DNA of 24,343 nucleotides from a virus, in the IMG/VR virus record IMGVR_UViG_3300025070_000232, positions 1-24,343 of that record; one strand, written 5' to 3'. The notes below the pieces were generated by a model. It had not been told where the DNA came from, did no database searches, and saw nothing but the letters and a program-made list of their open reading frames with translations. This document shows positions 11,037 through 22,604 of the stretch, one piece after another; position 1 is the first letter of the stretch, and each line of letters begins with the position of its first letter. The position numbers and the translations under genes are program-made.

Positions 11037-11055
11037 TAACTAGCCTGTATGTCAA
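11027..11055 (-). promoter_or_regulatory. Weaker promoter candidate at the RNR 3' end
   Basis: TTGACA (11050-11055), exactly 17 nt, then TAGAAG (11027-11032) on the - strand. The -35 is perfect but the -10 matches only 4 of 6. It spans the junction of RNR and the 50-aa membrane-protein gene, similar to the placement of the stronger sites. Confidence 0.3.
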
Positions 11056-15998: not shown

Positions 15999-16027
15999 GT
16001 TATATCATATAACGTCTTTGGTGTCAA
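15999..16027 (-). promoter_or_regulatory. Sigma-70-type promoter before the ssDNA-binding-protein/nuclease genes
   Basis: -35 TTGACA (16022-16027), 17-nt spacer, -10 TATAAC (15999-16004) on the - strand, with an AT-rich stretch after it. It overlaps the last codons and stop of the DNA polymerase gene. Transcription would begin near 15992, about 24 nt before the ssDNA-binding-protein-like start codon. Confidence 0.7.
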
Positions 16028-18020
16028 GCCAATTATTACCTATTTTTGCTTCTAATAATAATGGCACATTAAAATCAATATTAAATTTTTGATTTATGAT
16101 GTTTAGTAAGTCTTGATTGGCTGAATGTAGTAGGAATAAAACCTGCTTCTCTTCTTCAGGATGTATGTCAATGACTATTGAATCATGTACACTATTCACA
16201 ACACAAGACTTCAGATTGGTTAGTAGCCTGTCTATGTGCATAAGTATAAGAGGAACAATATCAGCAGTAGCAAAACTTTGTACAGGATAATTCTTAACCT
16301 GTGTGAAGTTAGTTATCTTGCCATTTGCATATCTCTTAGCATCAGGAAATGCAAACTCTCTACCTGAAGGTATCTTTATCTTACCTGTAGTCATAACTTC
16401 CTTAGCCAATTTGGTGTGCCATAGTGCAATTCCCTTGTACTTTTCTGTGAAGTGCTTATAATATGTTGCCTGAGAAGGTGTCCTCCCAAATCCTGTTGCT
16501 CCATACAAGGGTGCAAACGTGTGTGCCTTCGCTTCTTGGCGAGATGTCTTTTCACCTGCATCACTAATAACACGAGCAGTATAACTATGCACATCAAATC
16601 CATCTTCAATCTCCTTCATAGCAGTTTGGTCTTGTGATAAAAATGCAGCAGCTCTGAACTCTAACTGTGCAAAGTCTGCTTCAAGTATCTTGCCACCCTT
16701 CCAACGTGACACAAATACTTTCTTGACAGGGAATGTACCACCTCTAGGCATATTCTGCATGTTAGGGTCAGCACCACTAAACCTGCCTGTAGCAGTCCTA
16801 TGTTGTAGCAGTCTCACATGTAGCTTGCCATCAGGCTTTATGTGAGTCTGTATACCTTCAACAAAGGAAGACAAGTAGGTATCAAGTGCAGACAATCTCT
16901 GTAAGTCTGATAAGAAGTTCATGGCACTAGTCATGTTCTTATGTTTAGCCATAGTATATAGTGTGCCTAAGTTAGTCTTGTTTACACTAAACCCATTGGC
17001 ACTAACCCACTTAGCATTAGGAGCATTGAACTTCAACCCACCTATTACCATTTTATCAGGTATAAATAAGTAGCCAACAGAATCACAAGCATCACACTTG
17101 GTAGGTCTAGCAAAAGGAGTTCCATCTTTCTTTACCTTTCTAATGTATCCTGTGCCTGAACAAGGATTACATTGCTCTGCCTTAGTCTTGTACACTATAG
17201 TTGATTTAGTAGATACAGTTTGCTTATAGTCTGTATTGTCCATATAAGGAGTAAAGCTATTTGCCCATAGTGCTTTTTCTAGTGGCTTTCTACTGTAGAT
17301 AACCCAAGACATCTGTTCAGGACTGTTAAGATTGATAGGTGTATCACCCATTAACTCTTTGACTTGTTTGTTTAGTCTCTTCTCTATGTCTTGTTTCTCT
17401 TGCTCGAACTGTACACGTACTGAATCCAAAGCATCCTTGTCAACAGTAAACCCACGTTGATATATTTTAGCTAGGGTTGTGGCAACCTGATTAGTAAACA
17501 ATACTGTTTCCATAAGACTAGAATTATCAGTAGTATTAAGTCTTCTGTAAATAGAATCACTCAACAGTTGAGTTGCTTTTAAGTCAGCAGATAGATAATC
17601 TGATAACTCTTCGTGTGGTATCTCATCAACAGATGTATGGTTTTTGAAATACTCTTTCATAGTGTCTTGCTTCTTTGTGTCTAGGTCATGTCTTATAGCA
17701 CATGCTTCTAGTGACAAAGGTTCTTTCTGTCCACGTTGAAGTATATACTCACCCAACATGGTGTCAAAGACTGTGCCATCATACTTGAAGCCACATTCCC
17801 ATAACCACAGTAAGTCGTGAACAATGTTATGTCCAATCAATACTGTAGCTTGGTCTAGTAGTTCTTGTACACCTGTGAAGTCATCTCTGTACAAGTATTC
17901 CTTACCTGTGTCTGTCAAACATCCCACCATGACAAGTTTGTTGTCAGCTTCAAATGGGTCAAGGTGTAACTTACCACCTCTATGTGTAACAGTATTCTCT
18001 ACATCAAGTGTTAACTTCAT
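16005..18020 (-). CDS. Family A (T7-like) DNA polymerase with 3'-5' exonuclease and a zinc-finger insertion
   Basis: Replicative polymerase, 671 aa. Exonuclease: D6/E8 (LDVENT), D69 (IGHNIVHDL) and D146 (YLSADL), so proofreading should be active. Polymerase: motif A with D449 (LEADFAQLEFR), motif B R494/K498/F502/Y506 (SRQEAKAHTFAPLYG) and motif C H612-D613 (VNSVHDS). F502 equals E. coli Pol I F762, where T7 has Tyr. Between the two halves, C284xxC287 and C309xxC312 (CNPCSGTG ... CDACDSVG) form an inserted zinc-ribbon-like unit. It overlaps the helicase by 4 nt (ATGA). The fold and role are certain; the finger's function is not. Confidence 0.95.
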   Translation of the reverse strand: MKLTLDVENTVTHRGGKLHLDPFEADNKLVMVGCLTDTGKEYLYRDDFTGVQELLDQATVLIGHNIVHDLLWLWECGFKYDGTVFDTMLGEYILQRGQKEPLSLEACAIRHDLDTKKQDTMKEYFKNHTSVDEIPHEELSDYLSADLKATQLLSDSIYRRLNTTDNSSLMETVLFTNQVATTLAKIYQRGFTVDKDALDSVRVQFEQEKQDIEKRLNKQVKELMGDTPINLNSPEQMSWVIYSRKPLEKALWANSFTPYMDNTDYKQTVSTKSTIVYKTKAEQCNPCSGTGYIRKVKKDGTPFARPTKCDACDSVGYLFIPDKMVIGGLKFNAPNAKWVSANGFSVNKTNLGTLYTMAKHKNMTSAMNFLSDLQRLSALDTYLSSFVEGIQTHIKPDGKLHVRLLQHRTATGRFSGADPNMQNMPRGGTFPVKKVFVSRWKGGKILEADFAQLEFRAAAFLSQDQTAMKEIEDGFDVHSYTARVISDAGEKTSRQEAKAHTFAPLYGATGFGRTPSQATYYKHFTEKYKGIALWHTKLAKEVMTTGKIKIPSGREFAFPDAKRYANGKITNFTQVKNYPVQSFATADIVPLILMHIDRLLTNLKSCVVNSVHDSIVIDIHPEEEKQVLFLLHSANQDLLNIINQKFNIDFNVPLLLEAKIGNNWLDTKDVI
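17085..17171 (-). other. Zinc-ribbon-like insertion in DNA polymerase (residues 284-312)
   Basis: Two CxxC pairs 21 residues apart, each followed by a Gly-rich turn in the style of DnaJ CxxCxGxG knuckles. It lies between the exonuclease and palm/fingers motifs, near where T7 polymerase carries its processivity (thumb) region. Confidence 0.7.
17740..17767 (-). promoter_or_regulatory. Weaker promoter candidate inside the polymerase gene
   Basis: TTGACA (17762-17767), 16-nt spacer and TATACT (17740-17745) on the - strand. The hexamers fit well, but the spacer is 16 and the site is inside the exonuclease coding region, not at a gene boundary, so it may be chance. Confidence 0.3.
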
Positions 18021-19240
18021 GCTGTATACCTCGCTGTCTTGTAGTCAAGTTCGCAATGAACTGTGCCATGCCAACCTGATAACTTATTCTTTACAATATT
18101 AAGATGTCTCTGTACATCTTCCTCGTCTTGTCCTTCTACTTGTGGGTTCTTGGCTATCAATACCATCAAGTCTGCTTCTGCAGCTTTTCCTGTACGTGAG
18201 CCTTCCATCATAGCTTGGTTCAGTACAATCTTACCTTCAGCTTCAGCAGATAACTGAGACATATAAAAGACTGCACACTCATACGTCTTGGCAATCTGCC
18301 TAGCATGTATTGCATTAGCCTTCAATGCTTCATCAGGTCGAGAGAATCCACCTGTCCTAGCAAACTTATCTCCCATGTCTAATACTAGAATGTCAGGCTT
18401 GTATGCCTTACACACACTCTCAACCCATGCCATGTCACGATTAGATGCATCACGTATCTTGATATTATCAAAGACAGGTTTGTATCTAGTCTGTGCTTGA
18501 GCAGGATTGTTCTTGACTTCTTGTACAGTCATGCCTGTGGCTGCCGTCAAGTATCTTGCACCAACTCTGTGGTAACCTTCTTCATTACAGAGTATAACAC
18601 ACTTAGCACCTTGATGTGCAAATCCATTTGGACTAGCTATAAGGGATGCATGGAAGGATGTCTTACCTGTGTTAGGTCTAGCACCAACCTCAATCAAGTG
18701 ACCTGCATTGATACCATCTAGCTTACGTGTTAGACTAGGTATATTGAATGTCCATCTAGCTTCTAGGTCATTCTTAGCAAGCAATGTCTCAATAGAGATG
18801 TCATCCCATTCTATATTAAGGTTAGGTGTAAAATCATCCCCATACAACTCAAGAAGATTTCTAAGGGGTTCAAGAGAGGATTTAGCACCATTAACGTAGT
18901 CAAAGCCAAGATTGGCAATGTCTTCGCCAACAACTTGCTGAAACAATTTAGATAGTACTTCTTGTGCGATGTCACTTCCAAGTGGTTGCTCCTTCTTGAT
19001 TGTATTAAACAGAGCAGAGTATCCCTGCTTCTGTGCAGTAGTCATTGATGGATTGTTAGCTAAGAATAATGCTTCTATCTCATCAGGTGTTACTGTCCTC
19101 TCGTATATATCTATTGCTTTATCGAGAGTTTGTTTAATCTTACGAACATCCTTACTGAACAACCTGTCAGGGCATTTAGCACCTCTGTGGTCATCGTAGA
19201 ATGTTTTATCCATAAGACTTCGTATTAATGATAATTCCAT
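18017..19240 (-). CDS. DnaB/T7-gp4-type replicative helicase (407 aa)
   Basis: The RecA-like motor domain is at about residues 165-407: Walker A GARPNTGKT (186-194, K193), acidic CNEE (218-221) and Walker B DILVLDMGD (D288). Further motifs are YMSQLSAEAEGK (327-337) and SRTGKAAEADLMV (348-360), with the ATP-sensor residues expected of superfamily 4 helicases. The N-terminal ~150 residues are helical, without a zinc ribbon or TOPRIM, so this is helicase only. Primase is the separate gene 4 nt upstream, whereas T7 fuses the two. It should form a hexamer at the fork. The TGA overlaps the polymerase ATG, keeping fork proteins coupled. Confidence 0.92.
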   Translation of the reverse strand: MELSLIRSLMDKTFYDDHRGAKCPDRLFSKDVRKIKQTLDKAIDIYERTVTPDEIEALFLANNPSMTTAQKQGYSALFNTIKKEQPLGSDIAQEVLSKLFQQVVGEDIANLGFDYVNGAKSSLEPLRNLLELYGDDFTPNLNIEWDDISIETLLAKNDLEARWTFNIPSLTRKLDGINAGHLIEVGARPNTGKTSFHASLIASPNGFAHQGAKCVILCNEEGYHRVGARYLTAATGMTVQEVKNNPAQAQTRYKPVFDNIKIRDASNRDMAWVESVCKAYKPDILVLDMGDKFARTGGFSRPDEALKANAIHARQIAKTYECAVFYMSQLSAEAEGKIVLNQAMMEGSRTGKAAEADLMVLIAKNPQVEGQDEEDVQRHLNIVKNKLSGWHGTVHCELDYKTARYTA

Positions 19241-19244
19241 GTTG

Positions 19245-20018
19245 TTACTCCTTTGGGGTTAAGGTCATTAAGTTTTCCATATCGACAGGTGTACGATATT
19301 TTAAGTCATCTGTCAATCTAATTATTTTTATATCCTTTACGTAGGCTCTTAGTTCTTTTGCAAATGACAATGTCTTAGGCAAGGCATCAGGGTCAAGTGC
19401 TATGATTGCTGTTGAGAATCGTGAGAGATACTTCTTATGAGACTCTGCCAATGACGTACCCAACACAGCTACCCCAACTAATACATCACTACCTACCACA
19501 GATGCACTAACACAATCCTCAACAACAACTGCTACCCTACCACATCCATGAACAAAAGGCAAGTTACTTTTTCCATATCGTTTCCATTTAGGCAATAACT
19601 TTGTTACTGACCTACCAACTGCATCAACGATTATATCATTATGCTCGACAGGAAATACAACTCGCTTGTCCTTGACATCGTAGTGTAGATTCAATTTGTC
19701 ACAATCTAAACCCCACAGTTTACAGAAGTCCATAACCTCTTTCCTGTGATTATGTGACACTACGTACTCAGGTAATATAAATTCTTCTTTATCAAAATCT
19801 AAGACATCATCTGTAATTGCATCACGAATATCATCTACAGATAAATGCACACGTGTCGAACCTGATATTTTACAAGTAGACTTATAACAATTCCATAGTA
19901 GCTTACCCATATTGTTAGTAGCAGTAAAGGTTTTATATCCGTTACAATTAGGACAAGTAAGTCTTTTACTTTCTCCTACACTTAATTGTAAATCAGTTAC
20001 ATAGTTATAAATATTCAT
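19245..20018 (-). CDS. DNA primase (zinc ribbon + TOPRIM, 257 aa)
   Basis: The N-terminal zinc ribbon has C22/C25 (LTCPNCNG) and C44/C49 (WNCYKSTC), the usual template-recognition element. The TOPRIM core holds the metal-binding acids E167 (VAVVVEDCVSAS) and D209-x-D211 (IIALDPDA). It makes RNA primers for the lagging strand and corresponds to the N-terminal half of T7 gp4, here free-standing. The helicase follows after 4 nt. A strong promoter match lies 57-85 nt upstream of the start, in the end of the recombinase gene, so primase is probably the first gene of a replication transcript. The RBS is weak (AGTGAG). Confidence 0.9.
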   Translation of the reverse strand: MNIYNYVTDLQLSVGESKRLTCPNCNGYKTFTATNNMGKLLWNCYKSTCKISGSTRVHLSVDDIRDAITDDVLDFDKEEFILPEYVVSHNHRKEVMDFCKLWGLDCDKLNLHYDVKDKRVVFPVEHNDIIVDAVGRSVTKLLPKWKRYGKSNLPFVHGCGRVAVVVEDCVSASVVGSDVLVGVAVLGTSLAESHKKYLSRFSTAIIALDPDALPKTLSFAKELRAYVKDIKIIRLTDDLKYRTPVDMENLMTLTPKE

Positions 20019-20049
20019 TTGTATATCTCACTTATATGTATATATAGTA

Positions 20050-20973
20050 TTAGTTGTTCGGCACGTACCCTGTGCTTATAACATACTTTTCACGAGTTGT
20101 CAATGCATTTTCAGCAGAAGCATATGTATTTTTCATGTAAGGTTTCACACTATTGGGGTTAGCATGACCTGTCACAGACATAATTTGACCCATAGACACA
20201 CCTGCTTCTACCATCTCAGTAGTACCTGTCCTACGTAAGTCAGCTATTCGTAGCTCATTGGGTAGTCCACAGAGCTTCATTGTCCTTCTAGCTACTTTGG
20301 ATAGCCTGTGAAGAGAATAAGGCTCATACGACCCCCTAATCGCAGTTGGGTAAGGTGCGACATAAGACTGAAAACCATACTCTTCCTTCTGTTGTTTAAG
20401 CATTTCTAATAAGTCAAGAGAAATAGGCAGATGTACTACACTTCTTCTCTTTGACTGTTGCAAATTTAGCACACTTTTATCAAAATCTATGCTAGAAAAC
20501 TCTAATGTTCTCATATCTCCTACTCTCTGACACCATTCATATGCCATTTGTACAATTAATCCTATGTTTCTGTACTTGAAATCACTATAAGCATAGTCAA
20601 GAAATTGACACACTTGTTCTTTTGTCCACACAACTTTCCTAGTTTGTGTTGCCTTTCGTCTGAATGTAGCAAAAGGATTTGACTCAGCGTATCCCATCTC
20701 CATAGCAAATGAGTATAGTTTTCTTGCTACAGAACATATATGATTAGCCATAAAGATACCACGTTTTAGCCACACTTCATAGGCTCGTCTTGCCTTTGCA
20801 CCTGACAAGTTTTTCAATTTAGTTGTTGACAATTTTTTGGTGTCTACAGATGTGTCTAACATAACACCTAAGAAGTATTTATAATCTACTTTAGTTTTAT
20901 CTGCTAACATATTGAAATCACTAGATAAATAGTAATCGTCTACTAAATTTGTTAGACTTTTAATCTGCTGCAT
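20050..20973 (-). CDS. int: Tyrosine recombinase / phage integrase (307 aa)
   Basis: Site-specific integration or excision by strand exchange. The core-binding helical domain is at residues ~1-105 and the catalytic domain at ~110-307. Catalytic set by alignment to XerD: R150 (CQRVGDMR), K175 (QQSKRRSVVHLPI), R247 (ADLRRTG), H270 (VTGHANP) and nucleophile Y279 (KPYMKNTY). The residue normally His in H-x-x-R is Ala here (A244). The phrase DLRRTGTTEMVEAGVSMGQI resembles pelagiphage-type integrases as I recall them. No repressor or tRNA-like att site was seen in the window. ATG 20973 overlaps the preceding gene by 14 nt. A role in dimer resolution is an alternative to lysogeny. Confidence 0.9.
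   Translation of the reverse strand: MQQIKSLTNLVDDYYLSSDFNMLADKTKVDYKYFLGVMLDTSVDTKKLSTTKLKNLSGAKARRAYEVWLKRGIFMANHICSVARKLYSFAMEMGYAESNPFATFRRKATQTRKVVWTKEQVCQFLDYAYSDFKYRNIGLIVQMAYEWCQRVGDMRTLEFSSIDFDKSVLNLQQSKRRSVVHLPISLDLLEMLKQQKEEYGFQSYVAPYPTAIRGSYEPYSLHRLSKVARRTMKLCGLPNELRIADLRRTGTTEMVEAGVSMGQIMSVTGHANPNSVKPYMKNTYASAENALTTREKYVISTGYVPNN
20075..20103 (-). promoter_or_regulatory. Sigma-70-type promoter for primase-helicase-polymerase
   Basis: -35 TTGACA (20098-20103), 17-nt spacer, -10 TATAAG (20075-20080) on the - strand, inside the last ~18 codons of the integrase gene. The expected transcription start is near 20068, 50 nt before the primase ATG. Confidence 0.75.
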
Positions 20974-21301
20974 TTTTTAGTTTCCATTCTTTTTGTTTGG
21001 CTATTTGGTCATCAGCAAATCTGTTTAAGTAATTAGTGACAAAATCTTCTATGCCATTACTATGATAATGTTTATCATATACTCTTTTTTTGATTGACCA
21101 TCTACCTGTTGTGCAGTAGTAGGCATATTCCTTACCTGCTTTATTTTCTATGTATAACATAGTCGTGCCTGAACCCATGTAGGGTATCTTATTTTTTATG
21201 AGGTAGGTTTCTACAAAATCAACTGTTTCATTTGTATCTCGTCTAAGAACTACTTCTCCTTTAGAGTTTGTTCTCTTATACTGCCACTCACTTGTACTCA
21301 T
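20960..21301 (-). CDS. Unknown protein upstream of the integrase (113 aa)
   Basis: The start is ATG 21301, with GGAG immediately upstream and a 14-nt overlap with the preceding gene. A longer frame up to 21385 would overlap far more and begins with residues read out of frame from the neighbour. The protein is mixed alpha/beta: SEWQYKRTNSKGEVVLRRDT, FVETYLIKNKIPYMGSGTTM, a YYCTTGRWSIKKRVY strand pair, and a basic helical tail. No family is recognised. It overlaps the integrase start by 14 nt, so it is probably made together with it. An excisionase or regulator role is conceivable but not shown; no clear helix-turn-helix was seen. Confidence 0.6.
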   Translation of the reverse strand: MSTSEWQYKRTNSKGEVVLRRDTNETVDFVETYLIKNKIPYMGSGTTMLYIENKAGKEYAYYCTTGRWSIKKRVYDKHYHSNGIEDFVTNYLNRFADDQIAKQKEWKLKNAAD

Positions 21302-21536
21302 ATGCTCCACTCCATCTTGTATAGTGTCCATGTTCGCACTCAACTTTAGCACCAACAATACTAGCAAGTTGAAACTCCATTCCATCTAGCTTGCATATCT
21401 GTTCATAATCTAGTGGAACTTTTTCATCTGTGTTAGCGTTGATACTACGTAAATCCTCAAGCATATTGAGTATCTGTCTTGCTTGATGCTTAGTTAAGTT
21501 TATTATCTTATTTATTTCTTTTACTTTCTTCGCCAT
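21288..21536 (-). CDS. Unknown small protein (82 aa)
   Basis: A basic helical N-terminus (KKVKEINKIINLTKHQARQI) leads to a second helix (LNMLEDLRSINA), then an acidic stretch and a C-terminal part with Cys/His residues (KVECEHGHYTRWSGAYEY). Two helices followed by a short polar domain could bind DNA or RNA, but no family is recognised. The start lies 1 nt after the 39-aa gene's stop and the end overlaps the 113-aa gene by 14 nt. It is part of the segment led by the promoter at 21716-21744. Confidence 0.6.
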   Translation of the reverse strand: MAKKVKEINKIINLTKHQARQILNMLEDLRSINANTDEKVPLDYEQICKLDGMEFQLASIVGAKVECEHGHYTRWSGAYEYK

Positions 21537-21537
21537 A

Positions 21538-21657
21538 TTATACCTCCAATGCTATATAAATACATAATGCTATAATTAATAACTTACCATAATCTAAGTC
21601 ATACTTTGTACTCTCTCCATACTTCTCCTCGAAGTGTGCTATTATTCTATGCCACAT
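21538..21657 (-). CDS. Very small membrane-tail protein (39 aa)
   Basis: The frame starts at ATG 21657 with AAAGGAG about 6 nt upstream and stops 1 nt before the next ATG. It reads MWHRIIAHFEEKYGESTKYD, then LDYGKLLIIALCIYIALEV, so a polar half is followed by a hydrophobic tail that could span or anchor in a membrane. It is the first open frame after the promoter at 21716-21744. The function is unknown. The RBS and tight spacing support it despite its size. Confidence 0.55.
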   Translation of the reverse strand: MWHRIIAHFEEKYGESTKYDLDYGKLLIIALCIYIALEV

Positions 21658-21673
21658 TTTATTCTCCTTTCTT

Positions 21674-22180
21674 TCATGCTACTTCTCCTGTCATCCATTG
21701 TGGTTTATTTGTATACTTATACCTTGCAAATCTAGACTTGTCAACTATATAAAACTTTCTATATGCTTCAATAGGAAAGTTCTCATCTGTCTTCAAGTCA
21801 TCATGTCCACTAAAACATTGTGGGTGTGGTGTTATAAAGTTCTTCCAATCAGGTACAAACTTCTTACCTTCCCACAAGGGAAGAAAATGTTTGATTGCAC
21901 CATGTATTTTATTGTATCTTCTAGTGTACTCACTCAACATACAGTCATACAAACTAAATGCCCATATATAGTTTAACCTATTCTCCATTGCCCATAGTGT
22001 GCAAGGGTGCTTTTGATGTACAGGTTTGTACAACCCATGTTCCTCTGCGTAGTCAGGTGCATGATGCCATAGTGTAGTACATAACATCTGTGCTTCTTCT
22101 AGTGGCATCTTAACTACATGTTGGTCACATAGAGATGATGCTATCTCACGTGGTGTTTTTTCTATAATAAATCTATTCAT
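21674..22180 (-). CDS. Pyrimidine-dimer-glycosylase-like phage protein (168 aa)
   Basis: The start is ATG 22180 with GGGAG 7 nt upstream and an 8-nt overlap with the lysin gene. Motifs CDQHVVKMPLEEAQMLCTTL, KHPCTLWAMENRLNYIWAFS and EYTRRYNKIHG match, from memory, a phage family often annotated as pyrimidine-dimer DNA glycosylase (Pyr_excise-like) in marine phages. If correct it would start repair of UV damage in sunlit water. The T4 endonuclease V catalytic N-terminal Thr is not evident here (the sequence begins MNRF), so the chemistry is doubtful and 'glycosylase' should be read as a family label. Confidence 0.6.
   Translation of the reverse strand: MNRFIIEKTPREIASSLCDQHVVKMPLEEAQMLCTTLWHHAPDYAEEHGLYKPVHQKHPCTLWAMENRLNYIWAFSLYDCMLSEYTRRYNKIHGAIKHFLPLWEGKKFVPDWKNFITPHPQCFSGHDDLKTDENFPIEAYRKFYIVDKSRFARYKYTNKPQWMTGEVA
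21716..21744 (-). promoter_or_regulatory. Sigma-70-type promoter for the integrase cluster
   Basis: -35 TTGACA (21739-21744), 17-nt spacer, -10 TATAAG (21716-21721) on the - strand, within the last codons of the glycosylase-like gene. The expected start is near 21709, about 50 nt before the 39-aa gene. An AT-rich stretch lies upstream of the -35. Confidence 0.75.
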
Positions 22181-22604
22181 GTTTAGTCTCCCATCTATAA
22201 AATATGTGGTCATCTATTCTTGTTACATACGTCTTAGTATCTGCCCAACTAGGATTAACATAGTGTGCATGGTAGTGTGTAGCACCCTCAACAAAGTCAT
22301 CTAAGTGTCCATTGTATACACCATTAGCAATGTGCATAGCAGTTCTCCACGCCTGATGTTCTTTAGGCTTGTCACTCTTACCATCACAGTACCAACTGAA
22401 TTGACATCTATTCTTGATAGGAAAGTCAGGCTTCCATTTATATGTTGCACCTTGCTTAACTACGTCACATACTGTGTTAGGGTATCGTGTATCCTTTACC
22501 CTATTCATCACAACTTGTGCGACTGCCACTTGCCCTATGAAACTTTGATTCTTAGCCTCATGGTACACGTTGAGTGCTAGGCATATCATTGATTCCAATA
22601 ACAT
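22173..22604 (-). CDS. SleB-type cell-wall hydrolase (endolysin, 143 aa)
   Basis: Hydrolase_2/SleB fold: CLALNVYHEAKNQSFIGQVA with the general-acid candidate E16, VAQVVMNRVKD, a Cys-bracketed QFSWYCDGKSD (C67, C73) and the core GATHYHAHYVNPSWA. Family members cut peptidoglycan glycan strands, and in phages they serve as endolysins. There is no clear signal peptide (it begins MLLESMICLALNVYHEA), so export would need a holin. The only holin-like gene in the window is on the other strand at 796-990. It starts with one-base overlap after the 64-aa gene. Its place in the early module, not with late genes, is unusual for a lysin. Confidence 0.88.
   Translation of the reverse strand: MLLESMICLALNVYHEAKNQSFIGQVAVAQVVMNRVKDTRYPNTVCDVVKQGATYKWKPDFPIKNRCQFSWYCDGKSDKPKEHQAWRTAMHIANGVYNGHLDDFVEGATHYHAHYVNPSWADTKTYVTRIDDHIFYRWETKHE

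Follow-up and report, generated by a model that had tools for sequence, protein, structure and literature searches.

Results

Gene content and phage affiliation of the window

The window, by which we mean the whole 24,343-base virus record analysed here, is a fragment of a marine HMO-2011-like phage. Its minus strand carries int (20050..20973), which encodes a tyrosine integrase of 307 aa (PF00589, E 4e-18; phrog_1; 58% identical to the HMO-2011 integrase), followed by primase (19245..20018; phrog_47, E 2e-10; 59% identical to the HMO-2011 primase), the gene of a DnaB-like helicase (18017..19240; phrog_19, PF03796) and that of a family A DNA polymerase (16005..18020; phrog_17, PF00476; 65% identical to HMO-2011). 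Homologous int, primase, helicase and polymerase genes stand in the same order in the Puniceispirillum phage HMO-2011, and the window was assigned to the HMO-2011 type on this basis. The Roseobacter phages CRP-1 and CRP-345 share the order of int, primase and helicase with the window, their polymerase following a few genes later. The polymerase translation, inspected by eye, contains one full CXXCXGXG motif (CNPCSGTG) and one imperfect copy (CDACDSVG); such DnaJ-like motifs in the polymerase are given as a feature of HMO-2011-type phages in the available part of PMC6918029.

The known hosts of the HMO-2011 group are Alphaproteobacteria (SAR116, Roseobacter RCA and SAR11), and phages of this type are described as dominant and broadly distributed in the available part of PMC9038755. 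Contigs of two lengths, 55,371 and 62,825 bases (L247-L250), carry the same match and occur in the MAGs Flavobacteriales TMED123 and Neomarinimicrobiota MED589 alike. Because contigs of the same sizes and with the same match occur in two different MAGs, the MAG origin says little about the host.

A predicted promoter within the last codons of int

The first-pass annotation had placed a TTGACA-N17-TATAAG site in the 3' coding end of int, and exactly this site is present on the minus strand at 20103..20075; int and primase are encoded on that strand as well. The -35 hexamer TTGACA (20098..20103) is spelled by codons 291-292 of 307 (Leu TTG and Thr ACA), the TG of an extended -10 (reading TGt) lies at 20082..20083, and the -10 hexamer TATAAG, with G at -7, occupies 20075..20080. 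The site agrees with the sigma70 consensus at 11/12 positions, comprising 6/6 in the -35 and 5/6 in a -10 that lies, at 17 nt, within the 16-18 nt expected, and it has TG at the extended -10 position. The T found at -7 in the E. coli pattern is replaced by G, and this non-T base within an otherwise sigma70 layout places the site in the alphaproteobacterial -7A/C/G class. The site is absent from the output of our consensus scan because that scan requires the -10 to end in T. The last base of int (20050) sits 25 nt past the end of the -10, and primase, the first gene behind the predicted promoter, starts at 20018. Given the usual -10-to-start distance of 6 nt stated in the available part of PMC8407463, transcription is predicted to start at 20068 on the minus strand and to yield a leader of ∼50 nt, in agreement with the start near 20068 proposed in the first-pass annotation. 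A faint likeness to a T7-like promoter was noticed by eye in the 31-nt gap between int and primase and was rejected, no RNA polymerase gene having been recognised among the window proteins searched (not all of them) or in the HMO-2011 annotation.

To set these matches against chance, we counted sites in shuffled and recoded sequences. Sites at 11/12 with N17 and TG, on both strands, number 2 in the window compared with a mean of 0.05 in 40 dinucleotide shuffles, and sites at 11/12 with N16-18 number 5 compared with a mean of 1.15 (40 shuffles). When the last 25 int codons were recoded synonymously 20000 times, 102 trials yielded an 11/12 site that included TG, and 150 yielded one regardless of TG. 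Taken as a single sequence, the int-end site is suggestive and constitutes modest evidence; its conservation among relatives is decisive.

Conservation of the int-end site at the DNA level

We searched IMG/VR with int and compared the int-primase junctions of the best 80 of ∼600 loci. A set of 114 int genes, among them that of the window and many that come from shared contigs, was long enough and at least 60% identical; together with HMO-2011 it was reduced to 30 representatives sharing less than 90% nucleotide identity, all drawn from the matches listed. Genes below 60% identity were left out of the codon test, apart from HMO-2011, which was kept; also left out were CRP-345, CRP-1, CRP-2, CRP-207, CRP-603, ctYwJ313, CRP-235 and truncated genes. 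Among the matches listed, Leu291 is encoded by TTG in 30/30 representatives (background share 21%), Thr292 by ACA in 30/30 (background 53%), and Ser300, whose codon overlaps the end of the -10, by AGC in 25/27 (background 11%). Only 8 of the 147 int columns with the same residue in at least 80% of these listed sequences have an invariant codon; TTG291 is the most improbable of these and ACA292 ties for third, rank alone being used because the codon probabilities assume an independence that is untrue for related sequences.

The remaining parts of the site are similarly retained. TANAAG lies exactly 17 nt after TTGACA in 25 of the 30 representatives among the matches listed, with C directly behind it in 25/25 and the TG extension in 24/25, and T at -7 with spacer 17 is found in 0/30. 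On the coding strand of the same 30 listed int genes (28.6 kb) all 14 sites at 11/12 lie at the 3' end, as do 25 of the 30 sites at 10/12; the antisense strand holds 7 sites at 11/12, five of them within one bin. Taken together, these comparisons argue that the bases of the predicted int-end promoter are conserved at the DNA level, even where the protein code would allow change.

Unusually few silent changes were also seen in int codons 15-31 (window ∼20881-20931, minus strand), where Ser17 is TCT in 30/30 representatives among the matches listed.

The predicted first transcribed bases hold a further conserved element, GTGCCGAAC (20056..20064, minus strand), of which this is the sole exact copy in the window. 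TGCC[GA] stands behind the -10 in 23 of the 25 -10-bearing representatives among the matches listed, inside int in 11 of them and past the int stop in 12, and its TGCCG form, where located, lies 7 to 11 nt from the -10. Because this conservation ignores the stop codon, it is a matter of DNA or RNA and not of protein, and TGCC[GA] alone may well act at the RNA level in addition to the promoter.

Exceptions and distant relatives

No TANAAG was found in five of the 30 representatives among the matches listed (L041, L064, L154, L070 and L073), and on a tree of the int representatives no fewer than three changes are required to account for the loss of the -10. L041 and L064 have no room for a leader, their primase beginning 1 nt behind the int stop. 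Since TTGACA is kept in all five, a working promoter cannot account for the whole of its conservation; part of it may have another cause or be inheritance. At the int-primase junction of L121 and L052, int ends differently, the -10 is gone and an extra frame seems to lie before primase, suggesting that a gene was inserted between the two.

Like the window, HMO-2011 carries TTGACA-N17-TAAAAG with TG at its int end. The int end of CRP-345 reads TTGACA-N16-TACAAT, combining a 16-nt spacer with T at -7. In CRP-1, TTGACA is followed by a poor -10 (TATGCT at 16 nt, by eye), and the MAG contigs L247 and L248, whose int is 49% identical, have TTGACA-N16-TAAAAT, again by eye. The int ends of CRP-2, CRP-207, CRP-603, ctYwJ313 and CRP-235 were scanned and contain no such site. 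As far as these sequences indicate, distant relatives having an int-end site appear to use spacer 16 with T at -7, and the missing T is not universal.

A twin site at the 3' end of the polymerase gene

A second predicted promoter of the same architecture, the twin, lies at 15999..16027 on the minus strand, with TTGACA in the last polymerase codons, N17, and TATAAC directly after the stop. It is present at 11/12 in 23 of 26 representatives among the matches listed; most have a spacer of 17, and CRP-207 and CRP-603, which differ in the stop region, have one of 16. The twin occurs in CRP-2, CRP-207 and CRP-603, although the int-end site is absent from all three. The polymerase end of HMO-2011 reads TTGACG-N17-TATAAC (10/12), that of CRP-235 has only a different 10/12 match, TTGACG-N18-CATAAT, and that of HTVC033P has nothing resembling the twin. 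A codon test covered 24 of the 26 genes, all but those of CRP-235 and HTVC033P; the two most improbable invariant codons in 382 conserved columns among the matches listed were CTT665 and GAC666, the codons of the twin's -35. Further, the polymerase genes from the matches listed contain 26 sites at 11/12, of which 23 are the twin and 3 lie elsewhere, with 0 on the opposite strand. Two unrelated genes, int and polymerase, thus carry the same signature, and the twin is an independent instance of it. The gene behind the twin was considered as an SSB and this was rejected: the mean pLDDT of its model was 71, nothing in the PDB matched it at E ≤ 0.001, and matches to T4 gp32 complexes at E 0.15-0.2 were not counted as evidence.

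Other sites on the early strand

Between 9537 and 24343, the early strand carries TTGACA-Nx-TANAAN five times at x=17 and 0 times at x=16 or 18. Over the range x=10-25, spacers 15 and 24 each gave one further early-strand match and spacer 25 gave two; the opposite strand of the early region and the sense strand of the late region gave none. Five N17 sites were reached in 0/2000 shuffles and 0/1000 synonymous permutations (mean 1.0); the pattern had been relaxed to TANAAN after the sites were seen, and the spacer profile is the better control.

That all five are promoters did not hold up, the sites at 11055 (the RNR end) and 24174 being the failures. At 11055 the -10 lies inside the start of the next reading frame and the site is not well conserved; some site scoring at least 10 is found in the RNR-end stretch of 24/61 representatives, not all at the place of 11055. 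For 24174, any site scoring at least 10 in the 260 nt before the gene was found in 5 of the 27 relatives examined (of 80 fetched), and three of these five are alike, with TTGACA-N16/17-TATAAC at -105 to -112 compared with -136 in the window.

A third, less certain site, TTGACA-N17-TATAAG at 21716..21744 on the minus strand, is embedded in the 3' end of a gene that spans 21674-22213. TTGACA is present in 27 of 32 distinct relatives, the -10 varies, and T at -7 is found in 0/32; the codon evidence is weaker, with GAC in 19/19 at rank 4 of 11 invariant columns. These observations are suggestive of a possible third promoter, which would serve a 141-aa gene and int.

Transcription of the replication genes apart from int

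The first-pass annotation had also proposed that the embedded promoter would let primase, helicase and polymerase be transcribed without int, separating replication from an integration decision. As an interpretation of the sequence, the first part of this proposal is well supported by the predicted promoter and its conservation at the DNA level. In a simple terminator scan of the int-primase junction on their strand, no terminator-like site was found, so int messages probably also carry primase and the separation would be one-way. With this qualification, a separation of replication from the integration decision is plausible.

For comparison with phages lacking int, we searched with the primase of the Pelagibacter phage HTVC033P and obtained 80 loci, none with a recognisable int in the DNA covered; this reached up to 1.8 kb upstream, such that an int farther away would be missed, and primase starts were taken from the start of the match. 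Leaving out four loci with too little upstream DNA, we scanned the 160 nt before primase in 76 of the 80 (30 non-redundant), and 0/76 scored at least 10.5; the best score among the 30 non-redundant loci was 10.0 (L466). This contrast fits a separate replication promoter that accompanies int, as seen in a single distant lineage. Against generality stand the five of 30 int-bearing representatives among the matches listed that lack the -10 through at least three events.

Discussion

On the strength of these comparisons, we consider the int-end site to be a host-type sigma70 promoter of the alphaproteobacterial kind, lying within the last 17 codons of int, with a probability of roughly 80%, and it is very probably the promoter for primase, helicase and polymerase. 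Its form would be TTGACA, a 17-bp spacer and the extended -10 TGnTANAAG, in which the -7 base is not T. Initiation by host RNA polymerase near 20068 would give a transcript that has a short leader and carries primase, helicase and polymerase without int. The twin (16027-15999) would start the next gene block, from 15968 downward, and the less certain site at 21744-21716 the block holding int, such that transcription of the early strand would proceed block by block, the promoter of each block lying in the end of the preceding gene. The benefit would be expression of the replication genes without integrase.

The base at -7 bears on which polymerase reads these sites. Both the int-end and the polymerase-end promoters lack T at this position, the base in close relatives being G at the int end and C at the polymerase end. 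Without it, the int-end site would be weak for an E. coli-type polymerase; a missing -7 T is unusual for E. coli and common in Alphaproteobacteria, the hosts known for this phage group. According to the available part of PMC8407463, T at -7 is missing from more than 60% of the sigma70 promoters of the Alphaproteobacteria studied, a spacer of 17 is usual, and CarD is proposed to make up for the absent T. The -7A/C/G promoters described in that part of PMC8407463 resemble the present sites in their TTG-type -35, spacer of 17 and TA-rich -10; unlike them, the int-end site is phage-borne, lies in a coding region and has a perfect -35 and an extended -10. No RNA polymerase gene is listed in the HMO-2011 annotation and none was recognised among the window proteins submitted to two profile searches of 10 each (not all proteins), which makes the host polymerase the likely reader. 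Host CarD might possibly be needed. The one MAG searched, itself not safely linked to the phage, contains a 197-aa frame that has a CarD-type domain.

It could be argued that chance or protein constraint suffices, the codons for LT...VIS happening to spell a promoter that related phages inherited. The sequences are indeed related by descent, 0.5% of recodings yield an equal site given the protein, and the five representatives without a -10 retain TTGACA. Against this, TTG in 30/30 at a background of 21% is the extreme of 147 columns and AGC reaches 25/27 at a background of 11% (both among the matches listed), TGCC[GA] lies beyond the int stop in 12 of the 23 listed representatives having it, and the polymerase-end twin has the same architecture with its -10 outside the gene. 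We therefore regard chance or protein constraint as unlikely. A different kind of DNA-level constraint would arise if the conserved DNA beside int served recombination or integrase binding. An attP often adjoins int. This usual neighbourhood, the TGCC[GA] element without an assigned role, and the integration of CRP-3, a distant member of the group, at tRNA-Met (as given in the available part of PMC6918029) would all suit such a function. Five int-bearing representatives do without the -10, however, and the polymerase-end twin has no relation to int. Moreover, a scan of the whole window gave no tRNA, and Rfam matched nothing in 19000-22500 or, at E values up to 1, anywhere in the window. The single T-arm-like match (23641) lies far from the int-end site and does not exceed chance level; likewise, no attachment site was found at the int end of five matching MAG contigs, and no tRNA in the three loci scanned. 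An attP at the int-end site was rejected on these grounds, and we hold a recombination or binding site there to be very unlikely.

The letters might instead act in the message, through processing, leader structure or ribosome binding at primase, and not in initiation. The position of TGCC[GA], 7-11 nt after the -10 where its TGCCG form was located and, in the group with short leaders, beside the ribosome-binding region of primase, speaks for such an element. It would leave unexplained both the exact placing of TTGACA 17 nt before TANAAG and the recurrence of the same pair at the polymerase end, and Rfam gave no match; as the sole function of the conserved letters, we find it highly improbable. 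A sigma70 promoter at the int end could also be more than a constitutive start. It might be a regulated switch in which G at -7 imposes a need for an activator (CarD or a phage factor) and TGCC[GA] is an operator through which a phage regulator silences the replication genes while int stays on, placing the lysis-lysogeny choice inside int; we regard this elaboration as doubtful.

Returning to the promoter reading, promoters inside the end of a preceding gene are a known kind. The -7 feature is already known for the host class from the available part of PMC8407463. No promoter described for HMO-2011-type phages was found in the open-licence papers covered, which is weak evidence of absence; the word "promoter" is absent from the main text of PMC9038755 and PMC6918029. 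A parallel is the Pseudomonas phage LUZ100, for which the available part of PMC10134795 describes an integrase block that is transcribed apart and a downstream gene with its own promoter; by measurement, int there has its own promoter and transcription mostly ends behind it. LUZ100 differs, according to the same part of PMC10134795, in that it encodes an RNA polymerase and has a terminator after int, neither of which was found in the window fragment.

Since invariant codons reveal where the two promoters lie, they offer a cheap and concrete test of replication timing in HMO-2011-type phages, and of whether replication must have a start of its own once an integrase is carried. Invariant codons at gene ends are also a suggested way to find hidden promoters. 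In HMO-2011 itself (L083), two perfect 12/12 TTGACA-N17-TATAAT sites, starting at 27144 and 5502 on the minus strand, lie on the late-gene strand; they are two of the six sites listed for L083 and, unlike the early embedded sites, have T at -7.
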